Part shown: positions 52,975-64,000 of the stretch, in pieces
Numbering within the stretch: position 1 is the stretch's first letter
How the letters are laid out: each line of letters opens with the position of its first letter
NCBI RefSeq assembly: GCF_009451885.1
Contig: NZ_WIAO01000013.1
Span: forward strand, 62,001-126,000
DNA from: Glycomyces albidus
Lineage (GTDB): Bacteria; Actinomycetota; Actinomycetes; Mycobacteriales; Micromonosporaceae
Length of the DNA stretch: 64,000 nucleotides
Direction: 5' to 3'
Made by a program: the position numbers and the translations under genes
Notes under the pieces: model-generated
What the model was told of the DNA's origin: nothing
The model's input: only the letters and a program-made list of their open reading frames with translations
Databases searched by the model: none

Positions 52975-53535
52975 GGCGTTCCCTCCTGGAAGGCGTCGTG
53001 GATCCACCGTGCCGCAGCGGATGCCGGCGCCGTCGCACACGATGTGCGAGTTGTCCCGGGACGCGAAGTCGGTTGTGGAGGGTCTGCCCGGAACGCGCCC
53101 TTCGGAGGGCGAGGCGCGGGCGCGGACCAAAGCCGCGAATCGGACGGCACCGACGGTGGCCGGGTCGCGGCGGTCGGTGCCGGCGCGCTTCGTCCGAGCC
53201 GGATCAAGCCGTTGGTCTGAGGCTCATCATCCGAGTAGTCGGATTTCTCGACCGGACAGCCGAATACCGCGTAGGCGTGTGTCTGAATAGTCAGTGTTTC
53301 TTGAGATTCGCCCGGTAACACGGTGCGATACGGAGCCGGATTCAGTACTCCGGTACGCCCCTGGATTTCGACGCCCTCGTTCGTCATGATGGAATCTGCT
53401 GGGCTTCACATGCCGCCCCCCGTCGTCCCCGGCGGCAGGACGGCAGCCGGCGCGCGCCGTCGGCCCGAGACCGAGCCCGGCCCGGCACGGGCCCGTCGGT
53501 CTGACACAGAGGACCACCCCAGGAGGCTAGACAAG
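52975..53535. other. 561-bp divergent region between the MHYT genes and the conservon
   Basis: The longest gap in the window. Bases 53220-53330 are AT-richer and contain the hairpin ATCCGA-GTAG-TCGGAT (53229-53244) followed by TTTC. TTGAGA at about 53301 could be a -35 of cvnA, without a matching -10. The frames crossing it lack coding codon use. It probably carries long regulated promoters for both directions. Confidence 0.5.
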
Positions 53536-56500
53536 GTGAGCAAGCGCAGCTCGAACCGTGCGGGTTCAGCGGCTCGACGAGGACCGCTCGGCCTGCCCCG
53601 CATCGCCGACATGCGAATCCGGTCCAAGCTGGGACTGATCCTCCTCGTGCCCCTCGTCGTCCTGGTGGCCGTCGCCAGCCTCCGCCTGTACGACCTGGCG
53701 GACCAGGTGTTCGAGTCGGCCGACATGGTGGACCTCGTGGAGTTCAACGCCGTCACGGCCGAACTCCGGTACGACCTCCAGGTCGAGCGGTCCCTGCTCG
53801 TCACCAACCTGCGGCTCGGCGAGGACCACGTCGAGGGCATCGACGAGACCCAGTACGACGAGGCCGCCGTCGCCGCCCAGCAGCAGGCGACCGACGACGC
53901 GCTCGACCAGTTCAACGAGAAGGCCGACGCCCTCCCCTCCCTCTCCGACGACATCTCGAACCGCATCGACGCCGTCCGTACCCAGTACGAGAGCCTGCGC
54001 CAGATCCGCCAGGCCGCCGCCGACAGCCCCGACGGCGTCTCGATCGACGCGACCTCCCGCGTCTACCAGCGGCTCGTCGCCGAACTGGTGACGATCACCG
54101 ACATCTCCTCGCGCATCGTCAACGACCCCGAGATCGCCCGGAACCTCCAGGCCATCGCCGCCGCCACCACCGTCCTCGAGACGCTGGAGGAGGAGCGCGC
54201 GATCGCGATCAACGTCGGCAACGACAAGAAGTTCATCAACAACACCCGCTGGCAGAACTTCATCGCCTTCGCGACCCAGCGCAAGACCGCCGAGGACCAG
54301 TTCAAGACCGTCGCCGACCGCGACGAGCAGCTCGCGTTCTTCTTCAGCCCGGGCGGCCTGAACACCGCCGAGGCCGAAGCGGCCCTGACGTTCGAGAACG
54401 AGGCGGTCAACGCCGGCACCGACAAGCCGCTCGTCGTCGACGCCGCCGTCATCGACTCCTACAACGCGATCCTCAAGAACGGCCTCGACTACATCAACGC
54501 CGAGTCCGACGAGGTCCTGTCCGACGCGACCGCCGACCTGAACGCGCAGATCTTCCAGCTCCTGCTCGAAGCCGTGCTCATCCTCGCGGCGTTCGTCATC
54601 GCGACCGTGATCGCCCTGCTCATCGCCCGCAACATGGCGACCGGCCTGCGCCGCCTGCGCGAAGGCGCGCTGGACGTGGCGCACGTGTCGCTGCCCCAGG
54701 CGGTGGCGCAGATGCGCGACGCGGAGACCATCGGCAACCGGACCCCGGACGAGGTCGCCGCCGACACCGGCGCGGTCATCGACATCGACCAGCGCGACGA
54801 GATCGGCAACGTGGCGCACTCGTTCAACATCGTCCACACCGAGGCGATCCGCATCGCGGCCGAGCAGGCCGCCCTGCGCGCCAACGTCTCGCAGATGTTC
54901 ATCAACCTCGCCCGCCGCTCCCAGAACCTGGTCGACCGGCTCATCGGCCACCTCGACCACCTGGAGCGCGGCGAGGAGAACCCGGACCGCCTGGCCGAGC
55001 TGTTCCAGCTCGACCACCTCGCGACCCGCATGCGCCGCAACGACGAGAACCTCCTGGTGCTCGCCGGCGCGGACTCCACCCGCCAGGAGCGCTACCCGGC
55101 GCCGATCGGCGACATCCTGCAGGCGGCCCAGTCCGAGGTCGAGCAGTACACCCGCATCGAGTTCGGGAACCTGGAGGCCGAGCGGGAGATCCGCCCCGCC
55201 GCCGTCAACGACCTCGTACACCTCATCGCCGAGCTCATGGACAACGCGACCGCGTTCTCCCCGCCGGAGTCCCCGGTGCAGGTCGAGGCCGAGCAGATGC
55301 GCACGGCCGACAGCCCGAACGGCGCGATCCGGGTCCGCATCAACGACGTCGGCATCGGCATGCCGCCGGCGCAGATCGAGGACATCAACCGGCAGCTCTC
55401 GGAGTCGGCGGACGTCATCGACCTCGCGTCCTCGCGCATGATGGGCCTGGTCGTGGTCGCCCGCCTGGCGCGGCGCCATGACGTCCACGTCGAACTGCGC
55501 CCCGGCGAGCAGCGCGGCACGGTCGCCGAGGTCATCCTGGGCGACTCGGTCCTGACCGAGCCGAAGCTCCCCGAGCGCGGCCTGCGCAGCGGCGTCCCGC
55601 TCGAGGGCGTCAACGGCAACGGCCCGCGCGGCGAGCTGCTCGGCATGGAGGCCACCGGCGCCCTGCCGCGGGTCCCCGAGAGCCCGGCGGGCCTGTTCGA
55701 CACGGCCCCGCCCTCGACCCCGCACTCCCCGCCGTCGCCGCAGCCCACGCCGCCCGCGTGGCAGCCGAGCGCCCCGCAGGTGCCCTCGCGCCCGAACACT
55801 CCGCCGGCGGTCGAGCCCGTCACCGGCGAGTACTCGGTGCAGCGGCCCCAGCAGGCGCAGGACTTCCAGCCGCAGGCGTTCCAGCAGCGCCCCGTCGACG
55901 AGGAGCCGGGCTTCATGTTCCGGCCCGGCGGCCTCGCGGACGAGCGCAAGGCCAACGGCAAGGTCATGGAGGTGACCGGGGAGATCGTCTCCTCCGAGCA
56001 CGTGGCCCTGCCGAAGATCCAGCTCGAGGCGTGGACGCCCGAGCCGGAGCCGGCCCCGCCGTCGTGGCCCGACGTCGCCGCGGCACCGTCCGGCACGGAG
56101 GCGCCGCGCGCCGCCCGCCGCGACCGGGTGTCCGCCGTGGACGCCACGACCGAGCTCCCGATCTTCCGCGAGGTCGAGTCCGCCTGGTTCAAGGCGGTCA
56201 CGCCCGCGCCGAAGAAGGTCGACGACGAGGCCGCGAAGGTCGAGGACGCACCCGAGTCCTCCTTCCGGTCGGCCTCCCGTGAACCCGCGGAGGTGGCGGA
56301 GGCATCCGCACCGCGCTACGCTGACCAGTCAGGTGCGGACGAGTCCCCCGCCCAGGCTCGGGACGCGGCGCCGACCTCCCCTCCGCAGCCCACGGAAGGC
56401 CCGACCATGCAGAGCACCCCCGCCGCCGACGATTCGCCGGCCGCCTCGGGTCTCGAGCGACGCCGCCTCACCTCCCCTGAATCCGACACCGGGTCCTACG

Positions 56501-56742
56501 CGTGGCGCACCGCCGCCGACGACGGGTGGTCGCGCGTCGACAACGCCTTCGCCGAGACCATCGACGAGACGACCCCGGTGGGCCTTCCCAAGCGCCGACC
56601 GATGGAACGCCTCGTTCCCGGCGCGGTGGAGGAATCACAGGAGACCGTCAGCGCGCAGAAGCGCAACCCCGAGGGCATTCGGGGCCTGCTGTCGGCCTAT
56701 CACCGTGGGGTGCAGCGAGGACGTGGCAATGACGGCAACTGA
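53536..56742 (+). CDS. cvnA: Conservon sensor kinase CvnA (NIT-domain histidine kinase)
   Basis: A 1068-residue membrane protein. Helix one (about 32-50), an extracellular nitrate/nitrite-sensing-type helical domain (about 55-335), helix two (about 338-362), a HAMP-like linker, and a kinase-type ATPase (about 510-680) with N box LIAELMDNATAFSPP and G box DVGIGMP. The region before it (MFINLARRSQNLVDRLIGHLDHLE) lacks the usual phospho-His motif, as in other CvnA proteins. The 380-residue tail is disordered, ending with SAWFK, DDGW and GLPKRRPMERLVPGAV. GTG at 53536 follows AGGAGGC. Heads the cvnABCD operon. Confidence 0.93.
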   Translation: MSKRSSNRAGSAARRGPLGLPRIADMRIRSKLGLILLVPLVVLVAVASLRLYDLADQVFESADMVDLVEFNAVTAELRYDLQVERSLLVTNLRLGEDHVEGIDETQYDEAAVAAQQQATDDALDQFNEKADALPSLSDDISNRIDAVRTQYESLRQIRQAAADSPDGVSIDATSRVYQRLVAELVTITDISSRIVNDPEIARNLQAIAAATTVLETLEEERAIAINVGNDKKFINNTRWQNFIAFATQRKTAEDQFKTVADRDEQLAFFFSPGGLNTAEAEAALTFENEAVNAGTDKPLVVDAAVIDSYNAILKNGLDYINAESDEVLSDATADLNAQIFQLLLEAVLILAAFVIATVIALLIARNMATGLRRLREGALDVAHVSLPQAVAQMRDAETIGNRTPDEVAADTGAVIDIDQRDEIGNVAHSFNIVHTEAIRIAAEQAALRANVSQMFINLARRSQNLVDRLIGHLDHLERGEENPDRLAELFQLDHLATRMRRNDENLLVLAGADSTRQERYPAPIGDILQAAQSEVEQYTRIEFGNLEAEREIRPAAVNDLVHLIAELMDNATAFSPPESPVQVEAEQMRTADSPNGAIRVRINDVGIGMPPAQIEDINRQLSESADVIDLASSRMMGLVVVARLARRHDVHVELRPGEQRGTVAEVILGDSVLTEPKLPERGLRSGVPLEGVNGNGPRGELLGMEATGALPRVPESPAGLFDTAPPSTPHSPPSPQPTPPAWQPSAPQVPSRPNTPPAVEPVTGEYSVQRPQQAQDFQPQAFQQRPVDEEPGFMFRPGGLADERKANGKVMEVTGEIVSSEHVALPKIQLEAWTPEPEPAPPSWPDVAAAPSGTEAPRAARRDRVSAVDATTELPIFREVESAWFKAVTPAPKKVDDEAAKVEDAPESSFRSASREPAEVAEASAPRYADQSGADESPAQARDAAPTSPPQPTEGPTMQSTPAADDSPAASGLERRRLTSPESDTGSYAWRTAADDGWSRVDNAFAETIDETTPVGLPKRRPMERLVPGAVEESQETVSAQKRNPEGIRGLLSAYHRGVQRGRGNDGN

Positions 56743-56787
56743 GTCGCTGATCCGCAACACGGCAGACGCTACTAAGGAGCGCAAACG

Positions 56788-57186
56788 ATGAGCACTGGTG
56801 GAACCTCGGTCCAGGACCTGGGCTGGCTGCTGGCCGGCTTCGCCGAACGCGTGCCGGGCGTGGCCCACGCCGTCGCGGTCAGCGCCGACGGTCTGCTGCT
56901 GGCGTCCTCCCGGGACCTGCCAAGGGACCGCGCCGACCAGCTTTCGGCGGTGACCTCGGGTCTGGTGAGCCTGACCCAGGGCGCGTCCCGCTGCTTCGAG
57001 GGCGGCGCCGTCCTCCAGACGGTGGTCGAGATGGACCGTGGCTTCCTCTTCCTGATGTCCATCAGCGACGGTTCCTCGTTCGCGGTGCTGGCGTCGAAGA
57101 ACTGCGACGTGGGCCAGGTCGGCTACGAGATGGCCCTCCTGGTCGACCGGGTCGGCCAGGCCCTCACGCCTTCGGCCCGAAGCTGA
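56788..57186 (+). CDS. cvnB: Roadblock/LC7 protein CvnB
   Basis: A 132-residue roadblock/LC7-domain protein ([20 protein letters not shown], then [20 protein letters not shown]), the usual second gene of a conservon. Roadblock proteins form dimers and act as partners of small GTPases, here CvnD, linking it to the kinase. AAGGAG lies 8 bases before the ATG. The next gene is 219 bp on, longer than usual, with its own promoter-like sequence. Confidence 0.94.
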
Positions 57187-57209
57187 TCCGGGCCGCTTCC
57201 GGTGCACGC

Positions 57210-57239
57210 TTGGCGCAACGGGTGGCGGCACGGTAGGCT
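57210..57239 (+). promoter_or_regulatory. Possible internal promoter before cvnC
   Basis: TTGGCG (57210-57215) and TAGGCT (57234-57239) lie 18 bp apart in the unusually long cvnB-cvnC gap, about 165 bp before the cvnC start. It would allow cvnCD to be made without cvnAB. Confidence 0.45.
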
Positions 57240-57405
57240 CCATTCGAGCGGGAACGCAGCTGAGAATGGGACGAACTGAACAACGAACCCCTCCGTCGCA
57301 TCCCCAGGCGACGGGCCGGTGCCTCCCCGGGCACCCGGTACACGGATAACTGACAAGACTGCGGCACAAGGATTGTGGGATCTGGTGCCGTGGTTGGAGG
57401 TAACA

Positions 57406-57783
57406 ATGGTCCTCGGTGGTGATGAGCCTACTGGCTCACTCGTCAGACCGTACGCGGTCACGCGCGGCCGTACGCGGCCGCAATTGGAGATCGCACTCGA
57501 AGCGCTGGTGGAGACCACCGCGCGCGGCCGGTCCGGGCAGTTCCTCGGCGGCAGGGAGCAGAAGGTGATCGTCGACCTGTGCGGCGGCCGGCTCCAGTCG
57601 CTCGCGGAGATCGCCGCACGCATGGAGGTCCCGCTCGGGGTCGCCCGCGTGCTGGTCGCCGACATGGCGGCCGACGGCTTGTTGGCAGTGCACGAACCCA
57701 CCGGCTTCGACGCGGACGGCGGCGACGAATCGGTCGGAACCGAGCTCCTTGAGCGTGTCCTCAGTGGACTCAGGAGGCTATAG
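57406..57783 (+). CDS. cvnC: DUF742 protein CvnC
   Basis: A 125-residue DUF742 protein with the family start SLVRPYAVTRGRTRP and a winged-helix-like core (LQSLAEIAARMEVPLGVARV then LVADMAADGLLAVHEP). It is the third conservon partner; its biochemical role is not settled. The ATG at 57406 follows GGAGG by 5 bases; an in-frame start at 57319 would add 29 residues outside the family. cvnD begins 6 bases after its stop. Confidence 0.93.
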   Translation: MVLGGDEPTGSLVRPYAVTRGRTRPQLEIALEALVETTARGRSGQFLGGREQKVIVDLCGGRLQSLAEIAARMEVPLGVARVLVADMAADGLLAVHEPTGFDADGGDESVGTELLERVLSGLRRL

Positions 57784-57789
57784 ACCCTA

Positions 57790-58377
57790 ATGAACTCACC
57801 CGCAGACACCTCTCGTGTGACCTCTGCCAAGATCGTCATCGCCGGTGGCTTCGGCGTCGGCAAGACGACCTTGGTCGGATCGGTCTCCGAGATCACCCCG
57901 TTGACGACCGAGGCGATCATGACCTCCGCCTCCGAGGGCGTCGACGACAACAACCTGGTGCCCGACAAGGCGACGACCACCGTCGCGATGGACTTCGGCC
58001 GCATCACGATCGACCAGGACCTGATCCTGTACCTGTTCGGCACCCCGGGCCAGACCCGCTTCTGGTTCATGTGGGACGAGCTGGTGCGCGGCGCGATCGG
58101 CGCCATCGTCCTGGTCGACACCCGCCGCCTCGCCGACTGCTTCTCGGTCATCGACTTCTTCGAGCACCGCAAGCTCCCATACCTGGTGGCGGTGAACTGC
58201 TTCGACGGCAAGCAGCTCCACGAGATCAACGACATCCGCGACGCCCTGCAGATCTCGCACGACGTCCCCGTGATGTACACCGATGCCCGCAACCGCGAGT
58301 CCACCAAGCAGGTGCTCATCAAGCTCGTCGAGTACGTGCTGTCGATGCGGCGAACCCGCACCGTCGGCGTCCACTAA
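57790..58377 (+). CDS. cvnD: Conservon small GTPase CvnD
   Basis: A 195-residue Ras-like GTPase. G1 is GGFGVGKTT (residues 19-27), the switch region Thr is in KATTTVAMDFG, G3 is FGTPGQTRF (with Thr-Pro instead of Asp-x-x-Gly, usual in this group), and G4 is VAVNCFDG. It is the switch protein of the conservon, read out with CvnB and CvnC. Nearly the whole gene is overlapped on the other strand by the run-on frame of the HNH endonuclease. Confidence 0.95.
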   Translation: MNSPADTSRVTSAKIVIAGGFGVGKTTLVGSVSEITPLTTEAIMTSASEGVDDNNLVPDKATTTVAMDFGRITIDQDLILYLFGTPGQTRFWFMWDELVRGAIGAIVLVDTRRLADCFSVIDFFEHRKLPYLVAVNCFDGKQLHEINDIRDALQISHDVPVMYTDARNRESTKQVLIKLVEYVLSMRRTRTVGVH

Positions 58378-60705
58378 GTGCCCACAACTGGACGCATGAC
58401 AACCGACCGCGAACCGCGCCCCCGCGCGCGGTGACCGTCTAGGCTGACCCGAACCACCTGGACCATGCTGAAGGCGCCCAAGGCAGAACGCTTTGGGCGC
58501 CTTCAGCGTTCTTCGGGAAGCCGTCGAGATCGCCCCTCGGAGCAGGCGGGTGCTTCGACGTTCCGGGCTGTGGGTGGCCGCGGTTGCTGAATCGGCGACA
58601 ACGAGGTGAGTGGAGGGGCGGGCCTGGTTCTCCGGCCGTCTGGTTCGGTGAAGCCCGCGTTCAAGCGGCGGCGACACGGAGTACGCGGCGGGGAAGCGCG
58701 TGCGGCCGCCGGGTCCCCGGTTCGACCGGGCATCTCCTTCGGCGTGTTCCTGCTTGGGCGCGGCGAAGGGCTCGAACCCGTGCAAGGTTCGAGCTGAGCG
58801 GCTGGGACAGTGCGGCCCCAGAGGTACAGCTCCCCTTCCCCGCCCCGGCCGCTGCCGGAGCGGGCAGCGTAAGAACGGTGGCCGGCCCGGTGTCTCACCT
58901 TTCGGTTCGCTGATCTCGGGCGGCAGCGGCTCCCGGCCGGTCCGCGGGTGGGGGATCGGCGGTGGTTCGCCAACTCCGGCCGGTTCGGTCTCAGGTCCGG
59001 GGCCCGTGAATCTGGCTCGGCATTCGGCTCGCGCTTCCCGGATGGCGACCAGAGCGCGTCGTTGCTCGGCTGCTTGGGCTCTGGCGTCGAGGTCGGGTTT
59101 GAGTGTCTGCGCCCATTCGCTGCGGTAGAGACCGGTCGGGAAGACGTCCCAATCGGTACCGCTGTTCTCGGAGTCCATGTCCCGGTCGCTTCGCCAGTCC
59201 GAACATCCACACCCGCCCCGGCCATCCTCGACCTGCCCGACCTCCTCCTCTCCGGCCCTGACCTGCCTGGCCGAGTCTCGCCCGGTCGCGCCTCGGTGAG
59301 CGGCGGTCCCGGTCCCACTCCCGATCCCGGTGCCGGGGCAAGCGGCAGTCCCGGCCTTGACCCCGGCGGCGGTGGCCGTCCCAGTCCTCGTCCTGGCGCC
59401 GGCGCTGGTCTGGATGGTCCGCGTGTGGTCGTGGTGGGTGATCACTGCTGTCCCGGGGCCGGTCTTGACCACTTCCCAGCCGATGGTGTGGATGCGGCCG
59501 TGGTGGAATCGGCACAGGAGGATCAGGTTGTCGGCGTTGGTCTCGCCGCCGTCGGCCCAGTGGACGATGTGGTGTGTCTCGGTCCAGGCGACCGGGCGCC
59601 CGCAGCCGGACCAGGCGCAGCCTTCGGGCTGTTCGAGTTCGAGCTTCCTGCGCAGCGACGCGTTGGGGAGGCGGGCGGCCCGGCCGAGTTCGACGGCCTC
59701 GCCGCTCTGGTAGTCGAAGACCGAGGGGATGACACCGGCTTCGCAGGCGAGGAGACGGGCCTGGGCGACCGAGATCGGCCTGCCTTCGAGGAGGGGCAGG
59801 CGGCCGGTGTCCTTGCCTTGGAGGGTCTCGATGTCGACCGTGAGGTCGAGGGTGGCGGTGTGGCCGTGGCGGGTGGCGGCTTCGGGGGAGGTGCCGTATC
59901 CGGCGAGGAGCTGGTGGAGGGCCTCGGCGTTGCGGTTCGCTTGTGGGGGAAGGACGCCGTGCTGGTCTGATTCGTCTTGGCGGGGCGGTGGAACGGCCGT
60001 CTTGAGGTACTTCTCGAGGAGGCGCCCGGTGTCGCCTGCGAGTTCGCCGGAGAGGGCCCACATGCCGTTGTCGAGTTCCGCCAGCTCGATCCATTGCAGT
60101 GACTGCTCGCCGAGGCCTTCGAGGAGTTCGGTCTCTTCGGCGAGGGAGGCCGCGAGGGAGTCGAGGTGGCGTTGGAGGTCCTTGATCGGGGCGTGGCGGC
60201 AGTACTCGGCGATCAGGTGCTCGGGTGTCGCGCACTCGGTCCGGTCGTCGAAGGGGGAGAAGACAGGTTCTCTGAAGGGGGTGCGGGCGAACAGGCGCAT
60301 CGCGGGGGTGCGGTCGAGTTGCCTTACGGCGTAGGCGACCTGGTCGATCCGCGCCCGCCCGGTGGTGGCGGCAGCGGCGAGGATCGGGAACTTCCGGGAG
60401 AGGCGGGCGATGGCGGCGATGTCGGCGGCGGTGCGGTTGTGGAAGTCGAAGGTGGAGACGAGCCAGTCCCGCAGGGCTGAGAAGCCGAAAGCAATGCGGT
60501 GGAGATTGGCTTCCTTGGCCTCGATCACCGCTGACAGCACTTGGGCGTGCTGGGTGTTGATGACCTCGGCGGCCGCAACGAACGCGATGCGGATGGCCTG
60601 AGCCTGCGCGGCCCGGTCGGTGCCGGAGATGAGGGAGGCGGCCGGGCGCCCGGCGGGGAAGGCGAGTGCGGGGTGTGAGGGGGATGAAATGGGGGTGGTG
60701 GTCAT
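57796..60705 (-). CDS. DUF222/HNH endonuclease with a run-on reading frame
   Basis: A 13E12-repeat-type protein. Residues 1-330 are DUF222 (RIAFVAAAEVINTQHAQVLS onward) and about 370-440 an HNH nuclease (ETHHIVHWADGGETNADNLILLCRFHHGRIH). ATG at 60705 follows GGGAGG. Codon use and sequence remain protein-like to about 58880 (WDVFPTGLYRSEWAQTLKPD, then Pro-rich), but no stop occurs there; the frame continues through the conservon terminator and antisense to cvnD, ending at 57796 for 969 residues. The true end has probably been lost by frameshift or stop-codon mutation, so treat the last 360 residues as doubtful. Such genes are often mobile-element relics. Confidence 0.65.
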   Translation of the reverse strand: MTTTPISSPSHPALAFPAGRPAASLISGTDRAAQAQAIRIAFVAAAEVINTQHAQVLSAVIEAKEANLHRIAFGFSALRDWLVSTFDFHNRTAADIAAIARLSRKFPILAAAATTGRARIDQVAYAVRQLDRTPAMRLFARTPFREPVFSPFDDRTECATPEHLIAEYCRHAPIKDLQRHLDSLAASLAEETELLEGLGEQSLQWIELAELDNGMWALSGELAGDTGRLLEKYLKTAVPPPRQDESDQHGVLPPQANRNAEALHQLLAGYGTSPEAATRHGHTATLDLTVDIETLQGKDTGRLPLLEGRPISVAQARLLACEAGVIPSVFDYQSGEAVELGRAARLPNASLRRKLELEQPEGCAWSGCGRPVAWTETHHIVHWADGGETNADNLILLCRFHHGRIHTIGWEVVKTGPGTAVITHHDHTRTIQTSAGARTRTGTATAAGVKAGTAACPGTGIGSGTGTAAHRGATGRDSARQVRAGEEEVGQVEDGRGGCGCSDWRSDRDMDSENSGTDWDVFPTGLYRSEWAQTLKPDLDARAQAAEQRRALVAIREARAECRARFTGPGPETEPAGVGEPPPIPHPRTGREPLPPEISEPKGETPGRPPFLRCPLRQRPGRGRGAVPLGPHCPSRSARTLHGFEPFAAPKQEHAEGDARSNRGPGGRTRFPAAYSVSPPLERGLHRTRRPENQARPSTHLVVADSATAATHSPERRSTRLLRGAISTASRRTLKAPKAFCLGRLQHGPGGSGQPRRSPRAGARFAVGCHASSCGHLVDADGAGSPHRQHVLDELDEHLLGGLAVAGIGVHHGDVVRDLQGVADVVDLVELLAVEAVHRHQVWELAVLEEVDDREAVGEAAGVDQDDGADRAAHQLVPHEPEAGLARGAEQVQDQVLVDRDAAEVHRDGGRRLVGHQVVVVDALGGGGHDRLGRQRGDLGDRSDQGRLADAEATGDDDLGRGHTRGVCG
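58467..58507. terminator. Terminator of the conservon operon
   Basis: GCTGAAGGCGCCCAA (58467-58481) pairs with TTGGGCGCCTTCAGC (58493-58507), a 15-bp stem, followed by GTTCTT. It lies 89 bp after cvnD and inside the run-on part of the HNH frame. Confidence 0.88.
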
Positions 60706-61197
60706 GGAGTTCGCCTCCCTTCTTGCAAGGCTTGCTGTTCTCGAATGCGTTGCTGTTTTCCGCTTGCTTGTTCGATTGCTGTGACTCAATTGTGACTGTG
60801 GGTGGTCAGTGGTGGCAACACCTAGAAGAGTGAATGATGGTGAGAAAGTTTCATCGCGGACCGCGGAAGCGCCTGGGCCGCAATCGCAACCGCCGATGAC
60901 GTCGACCGTCGCCGCGGCAGGCGAAGCGGACCCGGCGGCCGAGAAGCGAGCTCGATGCGTCCTCGTCGTCGCTGCCAGAAGACCCGGGCCAGGATGGCGC
61001 GAAAGGCCGAAGCGGAAGCTGGATGCGATCCGGTCGTCGCCGCCAAGGCCCGGCCCTGACGGCGCGAAAGGCCGAAACGGAAGCCCCGCCAATGCGACCT
61101 CATGTTGCAGCGTCGCGCACCAGGACCGGCCCCGACGCGAACGGCCCCGACGCGAACGGCCCCGACGCGGAAGCCCCGGGACCGTGGATGCGCTTGC
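60706..61197. other. 492-bp gap with degenerate repeats
   Basis: Next to the HNH gene it is AT-richer with TTGCT repeated several times (60727-60780), probably the HNH promoter region. The other half is the repeat block at 60934-61171. No gene is evident. Confidence 0.5.
60934..61171. repeat. Degenerate tandem repeats of about 63 bp and 15 bp
   Basis: Units begin at about 60934, 60996 and 61061; the last two share GGCGCGAAAGGCCGAA exactly and then diverge. They are followed by three 15-bp copies of CGGCCCCGACGCGAA (61127-61141, 61142-61156, and 61157-61171 with one change). The block lies just downstream of the roadblock gene on the minus strand. Confidence 0.7.
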
Positions 61198-61623
61198 TCA
61201 GACGACCTTCGGGATCGAGCCCGTGTTCGTCAGGGCCTCGTTCAGGAGCGGGCCGACCTGCATCGTGAACTGGCCGAGCTCGTAACCGAGCTGCTCGCGG
61301 TCGCACTGGGAGACCGCCAGGAGCGTCAGGCAGATCTGCGGGCCGACCGGGGCCGCGAGGAGGACGCCCTCGGCCATCTCGACGATGACCTGCTGGGCGG
61401 GGCCGTGGTCCATGGACCGGCCGGCGCCCTCGCCGATCGACAGGAGGCCGGATCCGATGCCCGCGAGCTGGTCCGCGCGCTCCTTGGGGAGTCCGGCGGA
61501 CACCGCCAGCGGCAGTCCGTCGACGCTCACCAGAACCGCGTGCGAGAGCCCCGGCGTGCGCGCCACGAGCGATCCGAGCAGCATGCTCAGGGAGCGCTCG
61601 TAGACGCCGAGATTGGCGCTCAT
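61198..61623 (-). CDS. Roadblock/LC7 protein (second, CvnB-like)
   Basis: A 141-residue roadblock/LC7-domain protein, paralogous to CvnB (LGSLVARTPGLSHAVLVSVD, GLPLAVSAGLPKERADQLAG, QQVIVEMAEGVLL). The ATG at 61623 overlaps the end of the upstream gene (ATGA), so the two are translated together. No DUF742 or GTPase gene follows: next on this strand is a repeat block. It may plug into the cvnD pathway 3 kb away or act with its coupled partner. Confidence 0.93.
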   Translation of the reverse strand: MSANLGVYERSLSMLLGSLVARTPGLSHAVLVSVDGLPLAVSAGLPKERADQLAGIGSGLLSIGEGAGRSMDHGPAQQVIVEMAEGVLLAAPVGPQICLTLLAVSQCDREQLGYELGQFTMQVGPLLNEALTNTGSIPKVV

Positions 61624-63155
61624 CGGGCCGCCATCCTCTCCGTCCTGGCGGGGCTCCCCGGGCGCCCGCCGCGGGCGCGGCCCCAGCCCCGGAAGTAGCC
61701 GGCGGTGTTCTGCGCCAGCAGCTCGGGGTCGCGGTCGATCGGCTCGTCGAAGCGCGGGTTCTCGTCGGGGACGACCGCGCCGGGTACGAGGTTCGCCTGC
61801 GGCTTGCGCCGCGGCAGGCCCGCCGCCGTGGTCGGCTCCTCGGTCGCCGGCGTCTCGGTGGCCGTGCGCGCGGTGCGCCAGCCGTCGTCGCCGGGGAGGT
61901 TCCACGACTCCGCTTCGGGCTCTTCGGTCTCGGGCCGCTTGAACCAGGCGCTCTTGGCCTGGCCGAAGATCAGGAGGCCGTCGTCGTCGGCGGCGAGGCT
62001 CGCCACGTCGACGATGTTGACGTCCTCGCGGGGCTGCCACGGGTGGCGGCGCGGCTCGTCGGCGCGGGGGAGCTCGGCCGGCTCGGCGCGGCGGCGCCGG
62101 ATCGACCGGGTCTGCCCGCCGCTCTCGGCGTCGACCGGCTGCTGCATCGACGGCGACGAGAACGAGTCGGGGATGACCTGGGTCGCCTCGAGGTCCGGCA
62201 GGACCGAGTGGAGCTGCGAGGCCGGGTCCAGGGCCCGCAGGCTCTGGCGGTCCGGCAGGTCCCCGGGGAGGCGCACGGTGCGGTGCGTGTCGGAGTCGTG
62301 CCCACGGCCGCGGCGGCGCACGGCGGCGCGGTCCTCGGGCGGCAGCGGCGGCGGGGTGGCGTGCGTGGCCGGCTCGGGCTTGGGGCGCTTGGCCTGGAGC
62401 AGGCCGATGAGTCCTTCGAGCGACCGGTCCCAGGCCGAGACGGCGTCGGCGGTCGCGGAGACGGAGGGCGCGACGGACGGGTCGTCGCCGCCGCCGATCT
62501 CCCGGATCGCCTCGGTGAGCGCGCCGGCCATCGCGGCGACCTGGCCGGGGTCGGCGACGGTGGCGAGGTCGGCGGCGAGCTCCTCGGTCGAGATGGACTG
62601 GAGCGCCCCGGGCTGGGGGAGCCGGGTGAGGATCGCGACGGCGTTGGCCTCGCTCGGGTCGTCCCAGGCGGCCAGCGCGGCGGGGAAGACCGCGCGCAGG
62701 AGGCACGTGAGCGCCTCTGCCGCGTCGTGGCGGGCCCTGGCGGCCGCGGCCACCGTGTCCAGGATCGGGCGCAGAGCGGCCACCTCAGGGCGTGCGGCGA
62801 CCGGCTGCCCGGCGACCTCCCCGGTGGCGAGGCCGCGGGCGATCGCGATGGCGTCGTCGAGGGCGTCCTTGGAGCGGGCGGCGGGGCTGTCGGCGCGGAC
62901 GACGAGCTGTCCGGCGGCGGCGGCGAACTCGACGAGGTTGACGACGTCGCCTGAGTAGGAGATCGAGACGGACTGGCCGGGGGCCGATCGCGCGAGGAGC
63001 CCGTTGAAGCGGACCCAGCCGCGGGGGTCGTCGCCGAACGTGTCGGTCGCGATGAGGCTGCCGCCCGCGGCAACGAGGGCGACGGCGCACGCGGTGTCGC
63101 CGTGCCCGGCGCCGGACACCTGATGGTCGGTGGTGATGCCGCAGAACACTTGCAC
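61620..63155 (-). CDS. CvnA-tail protein with an IS110-like N-terminal domain
   Basis: A 511-residue protein. Residues 1-70 (VFCGITTDHQ, then TACAVALVAAGGSLIATDTF) look like the RNase-H-fold start of IS110 transposases, but the first catalytic Asp (GID) reads GIT, so it is not an active transposase. Residues 110-240 are helical. The end copies the CvnA tail: SAWFK, DDGWR and GLPRRKPQANLVPGAV, compared with GLPKRRPMERLVPGAV in CvnA. No kinase or membrane segment is present. GAGGAG lies 9 bases before the GTG at 63155; it overlaps the roadblock gene by 4 bases. The IS110 likeness is my reading and needs a profile search. Confidence 0.72.
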   Translation of the reverse strand: MQVFCGITTDHQVSGAGHGDTACAVALVAAGGSLIATDTFGDDPRGWVRFNGLLARSAPGQSVSISYSGDVVNLVEFAAAAGQLVVRADSPAARSKDALDDAIAIARGLATGEVAGQPVAARPEVAALRPILDTVAAAARARHDAAEALTCLLRAVFPAALAAWDDPSEANAVAILTRLPQPGALQSISTEELAADLATVADPGQVAAMAGALTEAIREIGGGDDPSVAPSVSATADAVSAWDRSLEGLIGLLQAKRPKPEPATHATPPPLPPEDRAAVRRRGRGHDSDTHRTVRLPGDLPDRQSLRALDPASQLHSVLPDLEATQVIPDSFSSPSMQQPVDAESGGQTRSIRRRRAEPAELPRADEPRRHPWQPREDVNIVDVASLAADDDGLLIFGQAKSAWFKRPETEEPEAESWNLPGDDGWRTARTATETPATEEPTTAAGLPRRKPQANLVPGAVVPDENPRFDEPIDRDPELLAQNTAGYFRGWGRARGGRPGSPARTERMAAR

Positions 63156-63466
63156 CCGCGGAGCTCCTCTCGTAGGGCGCGCAGCCGGCGCTGTCCCCTG
63201 TCGCCGGGGCTGGAGCCCGGCCCGTTTTTACCAGTCCGTTATCAGTTTTCCGCAGAATACTCGGTTCTGCAAGCGGACGGTCAGTGCGGGTTCGCCCACG
63301 GACGGAAGGTCATAGCACACAAAACCGCCAATTCGCAGACCGCCCTGACCAGGCCGTTCCCTTGTGGAATAACGCCGCGCGGTTGCCGCGGATCACAAGG
63401 GGCGGCACCGGAATTCGGACTCGGCGGCCCATCGGGCATGGGCTGTTCGGGGGATGGCGGCGCGCG
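63156..63466. other. 311-bp intergenic region upstream of the CvnA-tail gene
   Basis: Relatively AT-rich at 63225-63275. On the minus strand TATTCT at about 63257-63262 is a possible -10 for the CvnA-tail/roadblock pair, without a clear -35. No gene is evident. Confidence 0.4.
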
Positions 63467-64000
63467 CTATCCGCGCCATTCGACATGGTCGTTGATCTTC
63501 GCGATGACACCGCGCCATGCGATGGCCGCCTGCTGCGCGTCGTTGCGCCGCAGCCGCCGCTTCGCGAACTTGCCCTTGATGCCGCCTTCGACGACGACGC
63601 GGAACGCCTCGTCGAGGTCGTCGAGCGGCGACCCGGGCGCGAGGGCGGCGACGATCGAGTCGTTCTTGAGCGCGTACCCGAGGTCGCGGCCGACTTCGGC
63701 GGCCTTGATGAGGAGTTCGGGCTCCCACGCCTCGTGGCCGCCGCGGAGGTTCGCGACGACGAGGTCGAGTTCGTAGATGTCGGCTTCGTCACAGACGATG
63801 TCGGCTTCGGTGACGCGCTCCTGGAGGTCGGCGTACTCGTCGATCACGGCGAGGTCGTGGTCGTCGTTCTCCATGACGTACGCGACGAGCGCGGCCTGAT
63901 CGCGGAAGACCAGCAGCTTCCCCTTGCGGGTCAAGAAGACCGGGACCTCTTCGGGCTCGGCGTCGAGGGCGTCCACGTCCTCGTCGTCCTCGGCTTCGGG
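63467..64000 (-). CDS. Hypothetical actinobacterial protein, 5' end outside the window
   Basis: At least 177 residues, open to the window edge. The first visible residues are an acidic run (EAEDDEDVDALDAEPEE), then an ordered region VPVFLTRKGKLLVFRDQAAL and YVMENDDHDLAVIDEYADLQ, and a basic C-terminal part (KGKFAKRRLRRND). Relatives in other actinomycetes are labelled primosomal or hypothetical without evidence. A GTG at 63976 is an internal possibility, but the acidic lead-in suggests the true start is further right. Function unknown. Confidence 0.7.
   Translation of the reverse strand, partial: PEAEDDEDVDALDAEPEEVPVFLTRKGKLLVFRDQAALVAYVMENDDHDLAVIDEYADLQERVTEADIVCDEADIYELDLVVANLRGGHEAWEPELLIKAAEVGRDLGYALKNDSIVAALAPGSPLDDLDEAFRVVVEGGIKGKFAKRRLRRNDAQQAAIAWRGVIAKINDHVEWRG

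Follow-up and report, generated by a model that had tools for sequence, protein, structure and literature searches.

The window analysed here, a stretch of 64,000 nucleotides from Glycomyces albidus (contig NZ_WIAO01000013.1), carries near its end a gene at 61620..63155 on the minus strand, with a GTG start, which encodes a protein of 511 amino acids, P0001, and appears to join part of an IS110-type recombinase to a C-terminal tail of the kind found in CvnA, the membrane kinase of the actinobacterial G-protein system (AGPS) encoded by conservons. Four parts of the protein can be distinguished: a homologue of the RuvC (RNase-H-fold) domain whose DEDD site is apparently lost (residues 1-122, 62790..63155; the boundary at residue 122 was placed by analogy with IS621), a helical region matching the coiled-coil dimerisation part of IS110 recombinases (residues 123-260, 62376..62789), a variable linker at the site of the IS110 Tnp domain (residues 261-384, 62004..62375) and the CvnA-type tail (residues 385-490, 61686..62003), all on the minus strand. 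The open reading frame (ORF) of P0001 overlaps by four bases, ATGA, with that of a second roadblock/LC7 protein, RB2 (141 amino acids, 61198..61623, minus strand; PF03259, E = 5.6e-18, 64.9 bits against a cut-off of 23), as an earlier sequence-only reading of this DNA had stated. On the plus strand, a complete CvnABCD conservon at 53323-58377 is convergent with this gene pair.

The homology of the N-terminal region was established by profile-profile comparison. We found that hhalign aligns the profile of 63 members of the P0001 family with 15 IS110 transposases of related genomes at E = 9.8e-22 and a probability of 99.4, pairing residues 1-259 of P0001 with positions 3-268 of 409 in the transposase (250 columns, 23% identity). 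In IS621, the RuvC domain spans residues 1-122, the dimerising coiled-coil 123-188 and the Tnp domain 189-326 (PMC11208158); set against these bounds, the limits of the alignment indicate that the homology covers RuvC and coiled-coil, and ends about where Tnp starts. The sequence-only reading had described an IS110-like domain in residues 1-110; the homology stands, while its extent has to be revised, reaching about residue 260 instead of 110. The Pfam IS110 profile PF01548, searched against 51 genomes of the same Genome Taxonomy Database (GTDB) family as the window, matched eight orthologous ORFs at E<=0.01, two of them above the cut-off of 29 bits (G306, 42.8; G343, 32.4) and six below it at 26.5 to 18.2 bits (G311, G336, G334, G335, G327 and G310); at E<=0.1, 15 of 38 N-terminal domains (N-domains) of the P0001 family were matched, the best at 1.8e-10. 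A control IS110 transposase matched both PF01548 and the Tnp profile PF02371, while the G306 orthologue matched PF01548 alone, and PF02371 found nothing in P0001, nor in either of the orthologues scanned full-length (L085 and L106). Searches of PDB sequences gave nothing useful, whether by phmmer with the window protein (best E 0.032) or with the family profile (best E 0.89), and a scan of viral contigs with the family alignment returned no relative. The profile evidence strongly supports the N-terminal region of P0001 as the homologue of an RNase-H-fold domain, and residues 1-260 would accordingly be expected to contain that fold.

The acidic residues that define the IS110 active site are largely missing from the P0001 family. 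For the residue comparison, 47 family rows, left after 16 of the 20 Glycomyces loci had been dropped, were aligned jointly with 34 rows of IS110 transposases, which include two repeats. At the first catalytic position, aspartate is present in all 34 IS110 rows and in none of the 47 family rows, and no Asp occurs there in any of the 63 members; in the window protein GIT stands at the GxD motif, so the replacement of this Asp noticed from the sequence alone was correct. The third catalytic residue, also Asp, is kept in 2/47 family rows (33/34 in IS110) and the fourth in 4/47 (34/34 in IS110), with Arg at the latter position in 34 of the 47. The lysine of the KSD motif follows the same pattern (6/47 against 34/34). 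Mutating D11, E60, D102, D105 or S241 in IS621 abolishes recombination (PMC11208158), and the alignment indicates that the catalytic site is lost in the P0001 family.

The gene is found throughout the GTDB family of the window, which we take to be Micromonosporaceae. NCBI taxonomy places Glycomyces in Glycomycetaceae. All 20 confirmed orthologues among close relatives are from Glycomyces, with 69-92% identity in the best segment. A family-wide N-domain profile searched against 200 genomes of the GTDB family was positive in 197, covering 43 of 44 genera at E<=1e-25, with one match in 194 genomes and two in three; the three negative genomes (G551, G332 and G406) are drafts, assembled into 360 to 780 contigs. 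Since 197 of the 200 genomes have the gene, 194 of them in one copy, its distribution identifies it as a conserved single-copy host gene and not a relic. Among 394 genomes of the class, three of which belong to the family, 42 had a match at E<=1e-3 when the six best candidates per genome were scored; the best match outside the family reached E = 1.1e-29, while no family member listed scored worse than 8.2e-45. We examined 17 of the outside loci: 13 align with IS110 transposases along the full length, including the Tnp part, and four in part or in pieces, and the remaining 22 outside genomes with matches were judged by length and score alone. The same separation appeared in 150 genomes of the order, where all 19 family members scored 282 bits or more and none of the other 131 genomes exceeded 83 bits. 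In a tree built without 16 of the 20 Glycomyces loci, 20 further family rows and two repeated IS110 rows, the 27 family rows formed one branch (100/100) against 32 IS110 rows. These results support an architecture that is clade-specific within the sample searched.

Selection also differs along the protein. The ratio of nonsynonymous to synonymous polymorphism (pN/pS, ratio of medians across 21 Glycomyces) was 0.10 for the coiled-coil region, 0.33 for the tail, 0.35 for RuvC and 0.57 for the linker, so that the strongest constraint within the protein falls on the counterpart of the part through which IS621 dimerises.

The tail of P0001 carries the ordered landmarks SAWFK, DDGW and GLPRRKPQANLVPGAV, and the CvnA of the window carries SAWFK, DDGW and GLPKRRPMERLVPGAV, so that the three shared landmarks reported from the sequence alone are present in both proteins. 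A hidden Markov model (HMM) of the tail, built from 12 Glycomyces sequences including that of the window, was run on 8242 six-frame ORFs and matched 138 of them at E<=1e-3. The family N-domain accompanies the tail in 62 of these and a CvnA core in 57; most of the other 19 are truncated or split ORFs of CvnA or of the family. None of 20 column-shuffled tail HMMs, nor one reversed model, matched any of the same ORFs, and the shared tail is therefore beyond chance, although the sequence-only reading had allowed that homologues with the motif might not exceed it. A Glycomyces profile matched 92 of 296 class genomes, in 90 of them including the tail region and in two (G059 and G290) the N-domain only. 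N-domain and tail lie within a single ORF in 62 of the 63 members, the exception (L107) being split. Among the best 27 tail loci outside the family (L024-L050), a roadblock gene lies within the 1.5 kb flanks in 23 and a CvnA core is present in 18. A separate ORF near a contig start (L165:51-806, from locus L030) also ends in a CvnA-type tail, with no other Cvn match in 12 kb.

P0001 itself does not resemble a kinase. Its best 19-residue hydropathy is 1.58, compared with 3.09 for the window CvnA, and corresponds to no membrane segment; no ATPase, HATPase or sensor-core family was matched in Pfam and NCBIfam scans, and no transmembrane, NIT, HAMP or HATPase regions were found, in agreement with the earlier claim that the protein lacks membrane segments and an ATPase. 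The NCBIfam search gave nothing useful, the sole match being ArgJ at E = 0.12.

RB2 forms a clade of its own, separate from CvnB (18 rows, 100/100, against 60 CvnB, with 16 of the 20 Glycomyces loci dropped). A search of 121 family genomes gave two separate score groups, 172-248 bits in 26 genomes and at most 117.5 bits for everything else, and a comparison of coordinates placed all 26 RB2 genes directly downstream of the RuvC-tail gene. RB2 was thus never seen without the RuvC-tail protein, and the converse is frequent; by this count RB2 is an optional partner, present in 26/121 genomes. The four-base start/stop overlap between the two genes recurs in 26 of 34 RB2 loci. Among 42 non-Glycomyces loci from 33 genera, RB2 lies downstream in 13, and where RB2 is missing a roadblock protein is provided by the adjacent conservon in all 28 readable loci. 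The genome of the window holds five roadblock domains, two of them within the window.

The facing conservon consists of CvnA with NIT and HATPase domains by Pfam and a tail bearing the same landmarks (53323..56742; ORF as listed, the start probably lying further downstream), the roadblock protein CvnB (56788..57186; PF03259), CvnC (DUF742; 57319..57783; PF05331, 100.5 bits) and the small GTPase CvnD (57790..58377; PF03029, 112.7 bits; GTP_EFTU 23.2 bits, under the cut-off), all on the plus strand. CvnD has positional homologues in relatives and was named from the place of its gene and the cvn literature. A convergent conservon also faces the RuvC-tail gene in 34 of the 42 non-Glycomyces loci. 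The locus had been called a kinase-less second conservon; we rejected this label, as no CvnC or CvnD accompanies the gene pair and a full conservon lies opposite. Nor did we find support for the proposal that the gene stands where the kinase should be, since the kinase-bearing conservon is convergent with it both in the window and in those 34 loci.

Of the eight non-Glycomyces loci without a facing conservon, seven carry RB2 and the eighth (L099) lies at a contig edge and was left out of the comparison. In the remaining 41 loci, with about 5 kb read on each side, RB2 was present in seven without and six with a conservon, and absent in none without and 28 with one (Fisher p = 8e-5); with one locus per genus in 33 genera the counts in the same order were 3, 6, 0 and 24 (p = 0.015). 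The apparent link between the presence of RB2 and the absence of a nearby conservon is only suggestive, because five of the seven loci without a conservon belong to one genus and about 5 kb was read on each side.

The upstream neighbour of the RuvC-tail gene is a SatS-like gene on its strand that is cut by the window end (63467..64000, minus strand; NCBIfam SatS, 40 bits, far under the cut-off of 700). This arrangement occurs in 62 of 63 loci, with a median gap of 87 bases. The SatS-like product is acidic, and two longer homologues have no Pfam match. Between the two genes, an alignment of nine Glycomyces revealed a nearly invariant block with the inverted repeat GCAGAA-N7-TTCTGC (63231..63272, minus strand) and variable flanks, which is perhaps an operator or promoter. 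On the other side, an insert of about 2.8 kb at 58378-61197, with an HNH endonuclease ORF (PF01844), parts the two convergent units; in six other loci (L015-L020) the same units are just about 100-200 bases apart.

We consider it rather probable that P0001 was exapted as a dimeric scaffold, no longer catalytic, whose role is to offer CvnA-type tails to roadblock proteins. An IS110-family recombinase would have been exapted once, in an ancestor of the GTDB family of the window, keeping RuvC and coiled-coil, losing the serine-bearing Tnp domain and most metal-binding acidic residues, and gaining a CvnA-type tail on a flexible linker. The suggestion of the sequence-only reading that a domesticated transposase domain was joined to such a tail is supported by the IS110 homology, the lost site, the single clade and the conservation of the gene. 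The encoded protein is probably soluble and, by analogy with the coiled-coil of IS621, dimeric, with two tails exposed in the cytoplasm; these may bind roadblock dimers, formed either by the RB2 encoded downstream or by CvnB from the conservon beside it. CvnA9 is reported to contact both CvnB9 and CvnC9 (PMC8510531), and the CvnB homologue MfpD is reported to be a GTPase-activating protein (GAP) and a dimer (PMC13343842, PMC13015309); because P0001 would be a dimeric soluble carrier of the CvnA tail, the reading we favour is that of an adaptor for roadblock dimers or a competitor for them. It might serve the AGPS as an accessory subunit without a kinase, where it would either rival the membrane kinase in binding the GAP-like roadblock protein or draw that protein to another place.

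Several observations weigh against this interpretation. PF01548 finds the orthologue in just eight of the 51 family genomes at E<=0.01, the rest staying under the threshold, P0001 alone has zero matches in Pfam, and the same PF01548 search of the window's own genome gave no match, thus detecting no IS110 transposase there. Two AlphaFold models from Glycomyces-only alignments were weak (predicted local distance difference test, pLDDT, 44.8 and 54.4), and Foldseek found no PDB match at E<=0.001 for either, a null result that we did not use as evidence. We likewise did not count the sub-threshold matches, which for the first model included RuvC-like resolvases, IS621 and ISCro4 within the top 12 (best E 0.71) and for the second many RNase-H-like folds, such as sugar kinases and Argonautes (best E 0.11). 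The active site is not uniformly erased, because the position of the catalytic Glu is mostly acidic in the family (Asp in 39/47 rows, Glu in 2/47) and one or two aspartates of DxxD could be kept in the Glycomyces stretch KDALDDA, given a one-residue shift. In one assembly of 810 contigs (G297) the N-domain is present and a full-profile match at E<=1e-6 is absent, so that the tail was not seen. Finally, three of the 27 outside tail loci (L039, L041 and L049, read further as L166-L168) carry a tailed CvnA with DUF742 next after it, and the 13 kb read there gave neither a roadblock nor a GTPase match.

These three loci suggest that the tail may have a partner other than the roadblock protein. This partner could be CvnC (DUF742) or another common AGPS protein, RB2 being linked to the gene for some other reason, and the interaction of CvnA9 with CvnC9 (PMC8510531) would agree with this; we regard it as unlikely, as in the loci read the same-strand Cvn-type gene that follows the RuvC-tail gene is a roadblock gene and no DUF742 gene occurs there.

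The RuvC and coiled-coil parts might instead still bind DNA or structured RNA, the tail bringing the G-protein switch to that site as an output or input arm. IS110 recombinases act in complex with bridge RNA and DNA (PMC11208158), and conservons influence gene expression (PMC8510531). However, the Tnp domain is missing, the KSD lysine is seldom kept and no Rfam match was found at 61100-64000. The net charge of RuvC has a median of -12.5 (-19 to -2) in the 42 non-Glycomyces members compared with 0 (-10 to +7) in the 15 transposases, and that of the coiled-coil is -1.5 compared with +4, although this charge argument is weak because the ranges overlap and the window protein lies at -4 (RuvC) and -8 (coiled-coil). 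We therefore hold nucleic-acid binding to be quite improbable, and a version in which the dead IS110 recombinase, as a core AGPS subunit throughout the family, still binds structured cellular RNA in the way its ancestor bound bridge RNA, so that RNA controls the roadblock/GTPase switch, would be a long shot. A residual or degenerating IS110 element, fused by chance and devoid of host function, would agree with the transposase origin and is hardly credible given the single-copy conservation, the conserved neighbour in 62/63 loci, the single clade and pN/pS values of 0.10 to 0.35 in coiled-coil, tail and RuvC.

If P0001 is indeed a tail-presenting scaffold, it would be of use for the study of conservons, whose signal path from CvnA to the GTPase remains poorly understood (PMC13343842). 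With a soluble carrier that has no kinase, the tail is separated from the remaining parts of CvnA, and its role can be tested directly. The protein would also be a clear example of how a bacterial transposase became an apparent signalling scaffold, conserved throughout a family. The word "transposase" does not occur in the main text of PMC13343842, and among the matches listed in the open-access literature searched none describes a conservon component derived from IS110.

The protein can be compared with three known systems. It shares with IS110 recombinases (PF01548 DEDD_Tnp_IS110 plus PF02371 Transposase_20; IS621) the homologous RuvC and coiled-coil, and differs from them in the absence of the Tnp serine domain, the loss of the acidic active site, the added CvnA-type tail, and a single-copy state in 194/197 positive genomes with conservation across genera. 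With CvnA kinases it has in common the tail with its ordered landmarks and a gene close to a roadblock gene, whereas its N-terminus is IS110-derived and the membrane and kinase regions of CvnA were not found in it. Like the AGPS accessory proteins named in PMC13343842, CvnE (P450) and CvnF (GAF), it is an additional conservon-linked protein, and its linkage is conserved in 34 of the 42 non-Glycomyces loci. In contrast to them, it has other domains, its gene is convergent to the cvnABCD operon and not inside it, and in the window it stands beside a NIT-bearing CvnA, whereas CvnE and CvnF are reported there with a CvnA that has no sensory domain.
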